Of a stretch of 10,000 nt of DNA, positions 1 to 5,421 are shown one piece after another; the stretch's first letter is position 1, and each line of letters begins with the position of its first letter. The stretch comes from Asticcacaulis sp. (lineage in GTDB: Bacteria; Pseudomonadota; Alphaproteobacteria; Caulobacterales; Caulobacteraceae). Both the position numbers and the translations under genes were made by a program. The stretch covers positions 1 through 10,000 of the forward strand of contig NZ_JAIWNX010000130.1 in NCBI RefSeq assembly GCF_020217185.1, given 5' to 3'. Under the pieces are notes generated by a model. It worked only from the letters and a program-made list of their open reading frames with translations. It did not search any database and had not been told where the DNA came from.

Positions 1-549
1 GACTGGCGCGCGCTTGACTGGCGGCCGGACGGACTCACGAAACCCGAAGGTCTCAAACTCGACCTTTGCGGCATCGCCAAAGGCTTTGCCGTCGATGCCG
101 TGACCGACAGGCTCAAGGCAACGCCGGGGGTACATTCGGCACTGATCGAGATTGGTGGCGAATTGAAAGCGTTCGGCATCCGGTCCGAAGGTCAGCCGTG
201 GTGGATTGAGATTGACCGCGCCGATAATGCGTCCGACACCGAAACCCTTGTGGCGCTCTGCGATCTGGCCGTGGCCACCACGGGCGACAGCCAGCGCTAT
301 TTTATCCATGACGGTGTGCGCCTGTCGCATACGATCGACGCCGCCACCGCCGCCCCGGTGCAGAGCGGCATCCGTCAGGTCAGCGTCTTTGATGCGCAGT
401 GCTGGCGCGCCGATGCGCTGGCCACCGCTCTGATGGTCATGGGCGAACAGCGTGCCATGTCTTTTGCACAAACCCATGCTATCCCTTGTCTGATGGGGCT
501 GAGCGACGGGCGTGAGGTGCTGAGCCCTGCCCTTGAGGACTGGCTATGA
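1..549 (+). CDS. apbE: FAD:protein FMN transferase (ApbE family), 3' part
   Basis: This is the C-terminal 182 residues of an ApbE-family protein; the 5' end lies left of the window and the frame is open from base 1. ApbE proteins move FMN from FAD onto a Thr or Ser of a target flavoprotein, usually at or outside the cytoplasmic membrane, using Mg2+. Family hallmarks seen are LDLCGIAKGFAVD (nt 58-96), IEIGGELKAFG, VATTGDSQRYF, the HTIDAATAAPV segment and the C-terminal RADALATAL stretch that supplies metal ligands in the family. Two positions look divergent: Cys where LDLGGIAKG usually has Gly or Ala, and IDAATAAPV where IDPxTGxPV is usual. The stop overlaps the start of the next gene by ATGA, so the two are translationally coupled. 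Family assignment is firm. Whether the donor is a PepSY-linked membrane reductase system is inferred from the partner gene. Confidence 0.9.
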   Translation, partial: DWRALDWRPDGLTKPEGLKLDLCGIAKGFAVDAVTDRLKATPGVHSALIEIGGELKAFGIRSEGQPWWIEIDRADNASDTETLVALCDLAVATTGDSQRYFIHDGVRLSHTIDAATAAPVQSGIRQVSVFDAQCWRADALATALMVMGEQRAMSFAQTHAIPCLMGLSDGREVLSPALEDWL

Positions 550-1859
550 TCGACTTCGTTACCACTGATCCGCTGCGCGTGGGACTGGCCGCCGGGGCCG
601 GCGTGTTGTGGATGCTGATGAGCGGCGTCATGCTGACGCGCGGTCGCACCCGTGCGTCGGCCGTGGCCGTCGATGCCCTGATCCTCTCGGCCTCGCAGAC
701 CGGGCAGGCCGAAGAACTGGCGCGCCATACGCACAAGGCGCTGAGCACGGGCGGTCTGACCACGCGCCTGATGTCGCTGGGCAAGGCAACGGTCGAAGAC
801 CTGCAACAGGCCAAACTGGTGCTCGTCGTGGCCTCGACCACCGGTGTCGGGGATGCCCCGGACGACGGCGCGGCCTTTGAGCGCGCACTTATGTCTGCGC
901 GTCCCGACCTGTCGGCCCAAAGCTTTGCCGTACTGGCCCTGGGCGACCGCAGCTACGAAGACTTCTGCGCCTTTGGCCATCGCGTGCACGACTGGTTTAC
1001 CGCCTGCGGCGCGACGGCCAAAAAACCGATCACCGAGGTCGATGATCTCGATGCAACGGCCCTGAAACAGTGGGAATCCTACCTCAAGGAATGGGGTGGC
1101 GCGGCGATGCAAGCGGATAATCCCTTCGTCACGACGCCCCTGATCGCGCGCGAACGGCTCAATGCCCACAGCGCGGCGGCGGGGCTTTACGCCATTGATT
1201 TCGCAATACCCGAAGGCGCGACGTGGGTGGCCGGCGATCTGGCCGAAATCCTGACGCCGTCCGGGCACCGTCGCGACTATTCCATCGCCTCCCTGCCCGA
1301 AGAGGGGCGGGTGCGCCTGTTTGTGCGCGAAGTCATCAAGGCCGACGGCTCACGCGGCGAAGGCTCCGGCCTGCTGACGACGCTTCCCTTGGGCGAAAAC
1401 GTGCCGCTGCGGCTGAAAACGCATAAGGGCTTCCAGGCCCCGTCGGGCAACGGTCCAGTGCTGCTGATCGCCGCCGGGTCGGGTCTGGCCGGCCTGCGGC
1501 CGCATCTGCTGGAATTGGCCGGGCGTGGGCGGGCGTGCTGGCTGATCTATGGCGAGCGCCATCCGCTGCACGATGGGCGTCTGTCTGATGAGATGCGCGG
1601 CTGGCAACACGGCGGGCGTCTCCGCAAGCTGGATCTGGCTTTTTCGCGTCCTGATGATGGCGTGAAAACCTATGTGCAGGACGTGATAGCCCAACAGGCC
1701 CCGGCCATCCGCGACTGGCTGGGGCAGGGCGGCAGCGTGCTGGTCTGCGGCGGGTTGGATATGGGGCGCGGAGTCGATGCGGCTCTGAAAGAGGCGCTTG
1801 GCCCGGACTGGCTGGAGGCCGCGCTCAGCGACGGGCGTTATCGCCGCGACCTGTATTGA
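546..1859 (+). CDS. Membrane-anchored flavodoxin/FAD/NAD(P)H diflavin reductase (CysJ/CPR-like)
   Basis: The 437-residue protein has three parts. Residues about 10-30 form one hydrophobic N-terminal helix (anchor). Residues about 43-185 are a flavodoxin domain with the FMN phosphate loop SQTGQA (50-55), ASTTGVGDAPDDG and ALGDRSYEDFC. The rest is a ferredoxin-reductase-like module with the FAD motif RDYS (243-246), GSGLLTTLPLGE, the nucleotide-binding AAGSGLAG (Gly311/Gly313) and the terminal RYRRDLY, close to the RYxRDVY end of CysJ and cytochrome P450 reductases. It is much shorter than CysJ (about 600 residues) because the helical connecting domain is largely missing. Expected role: passing electrons from NAD(P)H through FAD and FMN to a membrane partner. 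Proteins of this build are often called sulfite reductase alpha subunit, but no hemoprotein subunit is present. The ApbE neighbour and the Fur site just downstream favour ferric or siderophore reduction with a PepSY-type protein; that role is inference. Confidence 0.88.
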   Translation: MIDFVTTDPLRVGLAAGAGVLWMLMSGVMLTRGRTRASAVAVDALILSASQTGQAEELARHTHKALSTGGLTTRLMSLGKATVEDLQQAKLVLVVASTTGVGDAPDDGAAFERALMSARPDLSAQSFAVLALGDRSYEDFCAFGHRVHDWFTACGATAKKPITEVDDLDATALKQWESYLKEWGGAAMQADNPFVTTPLIARERLNAHSAAAGLYAIDFAIPEGATWVAGDLAEILTPSGHRRDYSIASLPEEGRVRLFVREVIKADGSRGEGSGLLTTLPLGENVPLRLKTHKGFQAPSGNGPVLLIAAGSGLAGLRPHLLELAGRGRACWLIYGERHPLHDGRLSDEMRGWQHGGRLRKLDLAFSRPDDGVKTYVQDVIAQQAPAIRDWLGQGGSVLVCGGLDMGRGVDAALKEALGPDWLEAALSDGRYRRDLY

Positions 1860-1862
1860 TCC

Positions 1863-1896
1863 AAAAAAGAACCCGCCTCAGACTGAGGCGGGTTTT
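1863..1896. terminator. Rho-independent terminator, bidirectional but stronger leftward
   Basis: An 11-bp perfect stem (1870-1880 with 1884-1894, AACCCGCCTCA / TGAGGCGGGTT) encloses a 3-nt loop. On the + strand only four T follow (1893-1896), about 10 nt after the diflavin reductase stop, enough for a modest terminator. On the minus strand the stem is followed by TTCTTTTTT (complement of 1863-1871), a much better U tract. No long minus-strand gene ends here, so the asymmetry suggests a short leftward transcript. Confidence 0.85.
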
Positions 1897-1975
1897 GAGT
1901 GCACCGAGGATAATTGAGCGACAAGACGTCCCTCAGAAAGCGCCGGAAGGGGAGGCTGTCCGGTCCCGAACGCTT
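1863..1975 (-). ncRNA. Candidate Fur-repressed small RNA (about 110 nt, RyhB-like in role)
   Basis: The call rests on a complete transcription unit with no convincing reading frame: a leftward promoter (1981-2010), a Fur box against its -35, and a terminator with a good U tract on this strand. The predicted start is near 1973-1975. In the deduced RNA, 1963-1959 (CCGGA) pairs with 1947-1943 (UCCGG), leaving an 11-nt loop CAGCCUCCCCU. The CCUCCCC in it is complementary to Shine-Dalgarno-like GGGGAGG, the arrangement seen in several alphaproteobacterial trans-acting sRNAs. A weaker second hairpin (1934-1932/1918-1916 plus 1930-1928/1922-1920) and an A/U-rich single-stranded stretch (about 1908-1915) precede the terminator, whose U tail would suit Hfq. 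No homologue is recognised. The alternative is that the terminator merely serves the convergent + strand operon and the promoter match is chance. Everything beyond the sequence signals is inference. Confidence 0.42.
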
Positions 1976-1980
1976 GAGAC

Positions 1981-2010
1981 TATCTAACCCTGACTGCGCG
2001 CATTCGTCAA
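1981..2010 (-). promoter_or_regulatory. Leftward sigma70-type promoter overlapping the Fur box
   Basis: On the minus strand, TTGACG (complement of 2005-2010) and TAGATA (complement of 1981-1986) are separated by 18 bp. The -35 matches 5 of 6 bases of TTGACA and is the form found in the Caulobacter housekeeping consensus (TTGACGS with a GCTANAWC -10). The -10 block GTTAGATA agrees at 6 of 8 positions of the latter, counting N as agreement, though it is weak against E. coli TATAAT. Predicted initiation is around 1973-1975. The Fur site overlaps the upstream edge of the -35, so bound Fur would block polymerase. Confidence 0.5.
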
Positions 2011-2027
2011 TGAGAATTATTCGCATT
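2009..2027. promoter_or_regulatory. Fur box
   Basis: The 19-mer AATGAGAATTATTCGCATT is a 9-1-9 inverted repeat centred on 2018 with one mismatched pair (the left half is AATGAGAAT; the right half complements to AATGCGAAT). It agrees with the classical 7-1-7 Fur core TGATAATnATTATCA at 11 of 14 positions. It touches the -35 of the leftward promoter and lies about 100 nt upstream of the start codon at 2129. The best-supported target is the leftward transcript; the rightward secreted-protein gene may be co-regulated. The ApbE/diflavin operon next door fits an iron-responsive locus. Confidence 0.72.
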
Positions 2028-2128: not shown

Positions 2129-2527
2129 ATGAAGTCAATGGCTGCCCTGCTTGGAGGTTTGTGTCTGGCCTTTGCAGCCGGGCAGGTGGCGGCGCAGCCG
2201 TGCGAGCGGACGATTACCCTCGATATCCGCACCATAGACTACAAATCCAAACCCTATGATCCGATGCTCAAACCTCTGCTCGACAAGGTCGATCCGGACA
2301 CTGGCCGCATCGAACTGACCTTTGCCTCGGCACGGGTGCACCCGGAAATCGTCGATCTTCAAGCCGCTGGCCTCAAATACGTGCAGTCGAAGATCACGCT
2401 TCAGGGCTACGACCCCGCTCTGATCCAGCGTCAGGAGGTCATGCTGCCGCGCAGTTTTGCCGGCAAGGATGAGCTTTACCGCCTGATTGTCACCTATGGC
2501 CCCAAGGAACACGCGCCCGCCTGCTGA
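2129..2527 (+). CDS. Small secreted protein of unknown function
   Basis: This is a 132-residue protein that I do not recognise. Residues 1-22 look like a Sec signal peptide: Lys2, a hydrophobic core (ALLGGLCLAFAAG) and VAA before the likely cleavage site at Gln23. Cys12 is not in a proper lipobox, so a lipoprotein is unlikely. The mature part of about 110 residues has one Cys near each end (PCER and the terminal PAC), which could form a disulfide in the periplasm, and alternating polar/hydrophobic stretches suggesting beta structure. The start at 2129 is chosen because GAGGG (2114-2118) sits 10 nt upstream and the signal peptide then begins at the N-terminus; an in-frame ATG at 2057 would add 24 residues ahead of it, has no ribosome site and lies in a hairpin. 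The photolyase gene follows after 31 nt, so they may be co-transcribed. The upstream Fur box raises the possibility of iron control. Confidence 0.75.
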   Translation: MKSMAALLGGLCLAFAAGQVAAQPCERTITLDIRTIDYKSKPYDPMLKPLLDKVDPDTGRIELTFASARVHPEIVDLQAAGLKYVQSKITLQGYDPALIQRQEVMLPRSFAGKDELYRLIVTYGPKEHAPAC

Positions 2528-4245: not shown

Positions 4246-5421
4246 ATGACCCTGCCGCCGCTCAATCCGGTCTATGCCGGGCTTGGCACGACCATCTTCA
4301 CCACCATGTCGGCGCTGGCGGCGGAGACCGGTGCTATCAATCTGGGGCAGGGCTTTCCCGAAACAGACGGCTTCCCGGAGGTGCGTGAGGCCGCCGCCCG
4401 CGCCCTGATCGACGGTTCAAACCAGTATGCGCCAATGAAGGGGCAGGCCGCGTTGCTGGAGGCGGTGGCGGGGTTTTATAGCCGCACGCAGGGCCTCAGC
4501 CTTGATCCGGCAAAAAATGTGCTGATCACCTCCGGCGCGACCGAAGCGCTGGCGGCTTCGGTGTTCTCGCTGATTTCGCCGGGCGATGAGGTGATTGTTT
4601 TTGAGCCCCATTACGACGCCTATGCGCCCCTGATCGAACGCGCCGGGGGCGTGGTGGTGCGTGTGCGCCTCAGCCCGCCCGACTGGCGCTTTACCGAGGC
4701 GCAACTGACCAAAGCCTTTTCGCCGCGCACGCGCATGGTGATGGTCACCACGCCCAACAATCCGACCACCCGCCTTATGTCGCCCGAAGACTGGGCGCTG
4801 CTGGGGCGGTTCTGCATCGCGCATCAGGCCTATGTGGTGTCGGACGAGGTGTGGGAGCAGGTGGTGTTCGACGGTGCGGCGCATCACGGCGTGCTGAACG
4901 TCCCCGGACTGGAGACTTTGGGGGTCAAGATCGGCTCGGCAGGCAAACTGTTTGCCCTGACCGGCTGGAAGGTCGGCTTTGTCTGCGCCCATGAGCGCCT
5001 GATCAGCCAGATGGCCAAGGCGCATCAGTTCCTGACCTTCGCCACGCCGCCCATGCTGCAATCGGCCGTCGCCTTTGGTCTGGGCCTGCCCGACAGCCGC
5101 TTTGCCGAAGAGGTGGCCGCCCTTCAACGCTCGCGTGATCGCCTGCGCGCCGGGCTAGAGGCCGAAGGCTTCCGCACTTTGCCGTCCGAAGGCACTTATT
5201 TCCTCAATATCGACCTGCCGGGGTCGGGTGTGGTTCTGGACGGGCAGTCTTTTGCCTTGCGCGCCGTCAAAGAAGCCGGTGTGGCCACCATTCCGCTCGA
5301 TGCCTTCTGCGCGCCCGGCGGCGAGGACCTGCCGGTTGTCCGCCTGTGCTTTGCCAAGAGCGATGTGACGCTGGATCGTGGCATTGAACGCCTCAGCGCC
5401 GCGCGGCAGTTGTTGAGCTGA
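4246..5421 (+). CDS. Class I/II pyridoxal-phosphate aminotransferase
   Basis: This 391-residue fold-type I aminotransferase is complete at both ends. Seen are INLGQGFPETDGFP and YAPMKGQAALLEAV near the N-terminus, SGATEAL in the cofactor phosphate region, TPNNPTTR (Asn172), VSDEVWE (Asp200, pairs with the pyridine nitrogen), SAGKLFALTGWKVGF with the Schiff-base lysine Lys234, and VRLCFAK with Arg366 for the substrate carboxylate. The GKLFALTGWKVG form and overall pattern resemble the YbdL methionine / kynurenine (glutamine transaminase K) aminotransferase group, acting in the cytosol on aromatic or sulfur amino acids and their oxo-acids; the exact substrate cannot be read from sequence. It starts 14 nt after the DUF2256 gene, so it is likely in the photolyase transcript, although no functional link is evident. 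No clear terminator follows its stop. Confidence 0.9.
   Translation: MTLPPLNPVYAGLGTTIFTTMSALAAETGAINLGQGFPETDGFPEVREAAARALIDGSNQYAPMKGQAALLEAVAGFYSRTQGLSLDPAKNVLITSGATEALAASVFSLISPGDEVIVFEPHYDAYAPLIERAGGVVVRVRLSPPDWRFTEAQLTKAFSPRTRMVMVTTPNNPTTRLMSPEDWALLGRFCIAHQAYVVSDEVWEQVVFDGAAHHGVLNVPGLETLGVKIGSAGKLFALTGWKVGFVCAHERLISQMAKAHQFLTFATPPMLQSAVAFGLGLPDSRFAEEVAALQRSRDRLRAGLEAEGFRTLPSEGTYFLNIDLPGSGVVLDGQSFALRAVKEAGVATIPLDAFCAPGGEDLPVVRLCFAKSDVTLDRGIERLSAARQLLS

Follow-up and report, generated by a model that had tools for sequence, protein, structure and literature searches.

The gap of 269 bp between the genes at 546-1859 and 2129-2527 of the window (the whole stretch of 10,000 nt of Asticcacaulis DNA that was analysed) houses a Fur box, a promoter, the body of a small RNA and an intrinsic terminator, which together very likely constitute a real and apparently undescribed RNA gene under the control of Fur. 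We propose that its product is an iron-sparing small RNA of the RyhB-like kind, repressed by Fur and acting in trans on sodB and acnB, and we give this reading a probability of about two thirds. With the same confidence, iron would be spared via silencing of sodB and acnB in most of the species holding the RNA, genome G004 being a clear misfit.

The preliminary description of this DNA had placed a Fur box at 2009-2027, followed on the minus strand by TTGACG and TAGATA with 18-bp spacing, and these elements were found as claimed. The box, AATGAGAATTATTCGCATT, is an inverted repeat of the 9-1-9 type with 8/9 matching positions and represents the top 7-1-7 Fur match of the window (11/14). Since a window maximum of at least 11 was also reached by 8 of 200 dinucleotide shuffles, the box by itself is only moderately unusual, and the question would not be decided by the sequence on its own. 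The putative -35 element TTGACG (2005-2010, minus strand) overlaps the box by 2 bp, a position suited to a repressor, while the putative -10 element TAGATA (1981-1986, minus strand) is weak in comparison to the E. coli consensus, and a scan of the window for E. coli-type promoters does not list the pair. The Caulobacter promoter pattern, given as TTGAC-16-G/CCTANA in an excerpt of PMC3751524, fits the window promoter with one mismatch in the -10 region and fits better in G010 and G015. Positions 2004-2027 are 22-24/24 identical across five relatives, TTGAC is conserved in all nine genomes that carry the unit (the members), and in each of them the RNA is preceded by a Fur-like box edged by TTGAC. 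Paired Fur-like boxes with the core of the sRNA promoter, GAATAATTCTCATTGAC, were also seen near position 1500 of the loci L014, L015, L016 and L017, flanked by the gene of a secreted protein, DUF4198-like by eye, and a TonB receptor-like gene (by eye); this is apparently a divergent Fur-controlled pair.

The predicted small RNA extends from the start estimated from the -10 element to the terminator (1863-1975, minus strand) and is thus about 112-113 nt long, in agreement with the earlier reading of about 110 nt without a convincing gene in the leftward direction. Its intrinsic terminator (1863-1894, minus strand) has a stem of 11 pairs, seven of them G-C, and the U tract CTTTTTT. The suggestion that it works better leftward was borne out: a terminator scan of the window lists it for the minus strand alone, and stem and U tract were read in 9/9 members. 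Including the terminator, the segment 1863-1985 folds better than 200 of 200 dinucleotide shuffles (z -2.9). Upstream of the terminator lies the best-kept part of the unit, which the preliminary description had not noticed. This is the invariant motif UCCUCGGUGCACU (1898-1910, minus strand), the proposed target-pairing region, which is identical in 9/9 members, occurs once per genome and is located between a hairpin and the terminator. In the predicted fold of the window RNA its mean unpaired probability is 0.89; the corresponding predicted values are 0.82-0.91 in seven members, while the motif is about half paired in G011 (0.56) and G017 (0.53). The hairpin directly before the motif (1915-1935, minus strand) has two pairs changed on both sides, with pairing held in every counted cell (100%). 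Its covariation score was matched by 7 of 500 shuffles, and 44 of 500 had at least as many doubly changed pairs, so that the covariation support for this hairpin is modest.

At the 5' end, the fold prediction confirmed the hairpin that had been proposed to display CCUCCCC in its loop (1938-1975, minus strand; CCUCCCC at 1949-1955). The display itself held in part, because three of the seven bases are paired in the predicted fold. All six nearest members have kept the CCUCCCC sequence, G011 and G017 have it in extended form as CCUCCCUCCCC, and it is absent from G004; in the predicted folds of the members that have it, it is partly paired. The predicted RNA length among the members is 111-113, 135, 154 or 329 nt. 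In G017 an insert of about 160 nt was noticed in the 5' part of the RNA (L007, approximately 1620-1785); it is bordered by 19-nt inverted repeats (17/19) and resembles a small mobile element, and promoter, motif and terminator are still present.

The sRNA unit stands above chance because it is conserved in relatives. A BLAST search with 1850-2140 against 41 genomes gave long matches in five congeners beyond the genome of the window, a partial match in G017 and short ones elsewhere. When the loci were read on the correct strand, a Fur box with TTGAC, the RNA and the terminator were recognized also in G017, G011 and G004, in all three with the identical sequence TCCTCGGTGCACT near the end of the RNA, followed by the terminator. 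The 13-nt motif is present in 10 of 25 genomes of the genus, once in each. Nine of these occurrences are the sRNA unit, which is therefore found in single copy in 9/25 Asticcacaulis genomes; the tenth, in G014, was dropped, as it is located in an apparent open frame and no Fur box was seen around it. The exact promoter core AATTCTCATTGAC was found in none of the 16 genomes of the genus that lack the RNA (non-holders), and thus this exact-core search detected no replacement RNA. In a named genome collection a search with an exact pattern gave six places, belonging to Asticcacaulis aquaticus, A. sp. YBE204, A. currens, A. tiandongensis and two metagenome genomes, one of which is labelled Asticcacaulis.

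With a covariance model of the 3' part, nine strong matches (E-value 4e-12 or better) were obtained among 299 sampled genomes of the family, all of them in the genus, and the next best E-value was 3e-4. No strong match was found in the 274 family genomes outside the genus, and among 398 sampled genomes of the order the three strong matches were all known members. Thus, promoter, RNA body and terminator are kept in relatives, as had been asked of a genuine unit, while the covariation search proposed for the Caulobacterales as a whole returned strong matches from the genus only. Of the 18 weaker family-level matches 14 were read, and they have the appearance of ordinary terminators with the exception of L040. 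This locus, in a genome of another genus of the family (G045), contains CCTCGGTGC after a TonB receptor-like gene, in the context TTTTTCCTCGGTGCTGACC followed by a terminator; no Fur box was found there. This may represent a distant 3'-end RNA bearing a similar motif. Five of the seven weak matches at the order level were new, and when scanned for CCTCGGTGC one locus (L210) contained it.

Compared to G015, the transcript before the terminator is identical at 79/89 positions and the segment 2004-2027 at 22/24, against 9/18 in the promoter spacer and 60-63% at third codon positions (112/186 in the reductase gene at 546-1859, 84/133 in the rightward gene at 2129-2527). The corresponding values for G010 are 85/89, 22/24, 9/18, 142/186 and 100/133. 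Judged from sequence comparison, it is the RNA on which selection acts.

The pairing of the RNA with mRNA leaders was predicted with gap-free helices between the unpaired 27-nt segment around the motif and positions -35 to +15 of each gene, with no cost for unfolding of the target. The gene families were fixed beforehand (the succinate dehydrogenase anchor, superoxide dismutase, ferritin/Dps and aconitase), and the sodB match had been spotted by eye before scoring. As a background served 1,011 genes from crude ORF calls in 56 stretches of 20 kb of G005, which were also reused to rank the other species. A second superoxide dismutase (L110-L112) and the ferritin/Dps rows L131, L138, L139 and L140 were left out of the scoring; acnB was scored in G005, G015, G011, G017 and G004 and only read in G000, G010, G023 and G019. 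In G005, UAUCCUCGGUG forms a predicted helix of 11 bp with UGCCGAGGAUG, 3 to 13 nt upstream of the AUG of sodB, and UCGGUGCACU one of 10 bp with GGUGUACCGA, ending on the A of the AUG of acnB, each with two wobble pairs. Both helices have -15.1 kcal/mol and share rank 8 among the 1,011 genes. Among the seven iron genes scored, mononucleotide shuffling of the segment, repeated 300 times, never produced an equal second-best rank; sdhC, bfr, dps, acnA and leuC were unremarkable. This rank rests on the unpaired 27-nt segment and not on the whole RNA: with the latter as a query, sodB ranked 18 and leuC 17 of 351 in G005, and with ViennaRNA duplexfold, which allows bulges, sodB ranked 15 of 351. The G005 enzyme fits the Fe-type superoxide dismutase model best (281 bits, below the cut-off of 348), with 168 bits for the Mn type. 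The RyhB-like role suggested in the preliminary description is therefore retained as far as the predicted pairing over ribosome sites of sodB and acnB is concerned; what did not stand is the proposed route, since the predicted pairing goes through UCCUCGGUGCACU and not through the CCUCCCC loop.

The same sites in sodB and acnB were found in the six nearest members, G000, G005, G010, G019, G023 and G015. G015, the most diverged of them, has kept both sites, with an acnB helix of 11 bp in a leader that differs upstream of the site. In G011 and G017 both ribosome sites read CCGAGG, with only 6 bp of pairing (rank 132), and in G004 neither the sodB nor the acnB leader pairs with the motif (ranks 1005 and 983 of 1,011). 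Thus both pairings hold in 6/9 species, are down to 6 bp in two and are missing in one, and as five of the six well-pairing species are close relatives, their leaders are not independent. The sodB leader contains CCGAGG in 8/9 holders compared to 2/16 non-holders, and CCGAGGA in 6/9 compared to 0/16, a contrast on which no probability is put because the species are related; the two non-holders with CCGAGG have it as CACCGAGG, an 8-nt complement, before sodB.

It is also conceivable that the RNA is a genuine Fur-repressed sRNA whose main targets are other mRNAs, for example those of outer-membrane transporters as in the case of RusT (see below), and that the pairings with sodB and acnB are side effects or due to chance. 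This would be in line with the invariance of the motif in G004, where the two leaders do not pair, and with the six called genes that outscore sodB and acnB in G005. One of them, L240:14242 (plus strand), has a 12-bp match, UUAUCCUCGGUG, with two wobbles at its ribosome site and a product that is hydrophobic by eye, which makes it a candidate for a further target. However, some of the six better genes look like wrong starts or false ORFs, and two of only seven iron genes share rank 8 of 1,011, a result equalled by 0/300 shuffled segments. We therefore regard this possibility as unlikely, and it is the alternative that survives best. A search for exact complements of the motif (GTGCACCGAGG) in the nine genomes was rejected as a target search: it gave 38 places, nine of which are the RNA itself. 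Among the 23 loci outside of the RNA (from 30 of the 38 that were retrieved), no ribosome site of an iron gene was recognized by eye, and most of them lie within or antisense to long open frames.

In the favoured scheme, with sodB and acnB as targets, Fe-Fur bound to 2009-2027 would overlap the -35 element under iron-replete conditions and block leftward transcription. In the absence of iron, the RNA of about 112 nt would be made, ending at 1863, and its exposed motif UCCUCGGUGCACU would pair in two registers. The left register, within UAUCCUCGGUG, would cover the ribosome site of sodB, whose product is a superoxide dismutase that comes nearest to the Fe type. The right register, UCGGUGCACU, would cover the ribosome site of acnB, encoding aconitase B, and the first base of its start codon. 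We propose that translation of both mRNAs would be blocked and iron thereby spared. The gene, its conservation and its complementarity to the two leaders are read in the sequence; transcription, Fur binding, repression and any use of Hfq we infer.

Fur may have a second input at sodB. All nine holders have a Fur-like site (12-14/19) ahead of sodB, approximately 105-111 bp from the start of the gene and immediately in front of a TTGAAA/TATATC-like promoter, and a similar site (11-13/19) exists in 14/16 non-holders. Many of the sites in the non-holders read TGCGAAGCATTCTCA, as if the preferred Fur site differed between the groups. The location upstream of the -35 element suggests activation, and with its own Fur-like site sodB may respond to Fur without the RNA. 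If the site activates, Fe-Fur would raise SodB by two routes, one direct and the other through silencing of the RNA. This would amount to a coherent feed-forward loop, in which Fe-Fur activates sodB and represses the sodB-silencing RNA, and one 13-nt motif serves two registers, the left for sodB and the right for acnB; we put it forward tentatively, at somewhat less than an even chance. The published data for C. crescentus, as far as contained in excerpts, are mixed: sodB was down 2.2-fold in a fur mutant, with no iron response there (PMC3751524); superoxide dismutase genes were up under a chelator, which counts against the proposal (PMC6120978); and a putative IscR target lies upstream of sodB, which counts against a double raising of SodB (PMC11475020). 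If true, the loop would contradict the view that this group, owing to its dual-acting Fur, has no need of such an RNA.

The neighbourhood of the unit bears on the question whether the RNA serves its own locus. The convergent neighbour is a flavodoxin-type reductase gene (546-1859, plus strand), the last gene of a presumed iron operon. In G005 this operon comprises, on a single strand, genes for a TonB receptor, a PKHD hydroxylase, an FMN dehydrogenase, PepSY, DUF2271 and ApbE proteins and the flavodoxin-type reductase; from its gene content it looks like an iron operon, consistent with the iron/flavin operon named in the preliminary description. The RNA terminates on the operon's own terminator stem, as would be expected of a cis-acting antisense or 3'-end regulator of the convergent genes. 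However, the reductase gene of G004 ends nearly 600 bp away from the unit and the left neighbours in G011 are, by their translations, different genes, while the 13-nt motif is unchanged; we consider a cis-acting role very improbable. On the right side of the G011 unit there is an aminotransferase gene resembling the one at 4246-5421 of the window (by eye from translations). Together with the retained reductase gene of G004, this makes the locus appear ancestral, with neighbours having been exchanged.

The divergent neighbour (2129-2527, plus strand) encodes a probably secreted protein of unknown family and is present in 7/25 genomes of the genus, in all seven adjoining the sRNA. It begins approximately 100 bp from the Fur box, and the terminator stem, which sits directly after the plus-strand operon, starts 10 bases past the operon stop codon, so that the box could in principle serve this gene only and the terminator the operon only, leaving no leftward RNA gene. 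This explanation hardly survives: G011 and G004, which are without the rightward gene, keep Fur box, RNA and terminator, and conservation is far higher in the RNA body than in the spacer and at third codon positions. In addition, the rightward gene is preceded by a conserved palindrome of its own, TTTCCGTTCACGGAAA (2042-2057), for which 25-27 of 27 positions at 2038-2064 are identical in five relatives; the pattern is also present in G017 and was not found in L056 and L058, the loci without the rightward gene. It is probably the operator of some regulator for the rightward gene or for a photolyase-related gene. Since the Fur box stays with the RNA in G011 and G004 and the rightward gene has its own palindrome, we assign the box to the RNA; the preliminary description's question whether it regulates only the rightward gene is thus answered in the negative. 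Equally slight is the chance of a short protein-coding transcript. A 62-aa ORF is open through the region (1838-2026, minus strand), but its ATG falls within the Fur box, ahead of the predicted transcription start, it has no Pfam family match, the RNA length varies among the members as given above and the changes preserve pairing.

The assumption that the RNA may be undescribed apparently holds: scanned against Rfam, the window RNA matched no family at the gathering score, and a search of open-licence literature gave no title reporting it among the papers listed. The one overlapping hit, to RF02278, a betaproteobacterial toxic sRNA (21 bits compared to a cut-off of 50), lies over the terminator and was rejected. 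In the related C. crescentus several RNAs or transcripts rise in a fur mutant. According to an excerpt of PMC6120978, the sRNAs R0117 and R0088 were raised, R0117 being a 1-kb RNA within a known Fur-regulated region, and the authors saw no conserved Fur box before any affected sRNA. The authors of PMC3751524 speculated, in the part of the text at hand, that the Fur-repressed CC0682-CC0681 transcript could be processed into two iron-sparing sRNAs. By this description the pair is set apart from the Asticcacaulis RNA, as it would be processed from a longer mRNA.

A close comparison within the family is RusT (CCNA_R0199) of C. crescentus. According to an excerpt of PMC11005374, it is an iron-starvation-induced RNA of 118 nt with an intrinsic terminator, is controlled by NtrYX independently of Fur, has a gene flanked by lolA and xth, and acts on many outer-membrane transporters as targets; according to its authors, the Fur regulon of Caulobacter has no known sRNA. 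Likewise, the available part of PMC11475020 mentions RusT and no Fur-controlled Caulobacter sRNA, and Asticcacaulis comes up in it once, through a YBE204 protein that is part of an alignment. The RNA described here shares with RusT the family, a similar size and an intrinsic terminator. In contrast to RusT, as described in that excerpt, it has a Fur box and different neighbours, being located between the presumed iron operon and a photolyase-related gene pair.

Iron-sparing control by such an RNA has long been sought, yet is not established in the Caulobacteraceae. With a promoter, boundaries, a pairing motif and two named targets, the candidate makes the question testable in cultured environmental species, and its distribution in 9/25 genomes of the genus permits a natural comparison of species with and without the RNA.

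RyhB regulates the sodB and acnB mRNAs. To RyhB of E. coli and to PrrF, NrrF, FsrA, IsrR and BrrF the Asticcacaulis RNA is similar in having a Fur box in the promoter, a length of roughly 100 nt and an intrinsic terminator, and in six of its nine species the likeness to RyhB extends to the targets, since both the sodB and the acnB ribosome site are predicted to be covered. It differs from RyhB and its analogues in that its pairing motif is distinct, that it is found in part of one genus only and that its sequence does not match the covariance model of the RyhB family in Rfam. The RNA is a new family of a known kind.
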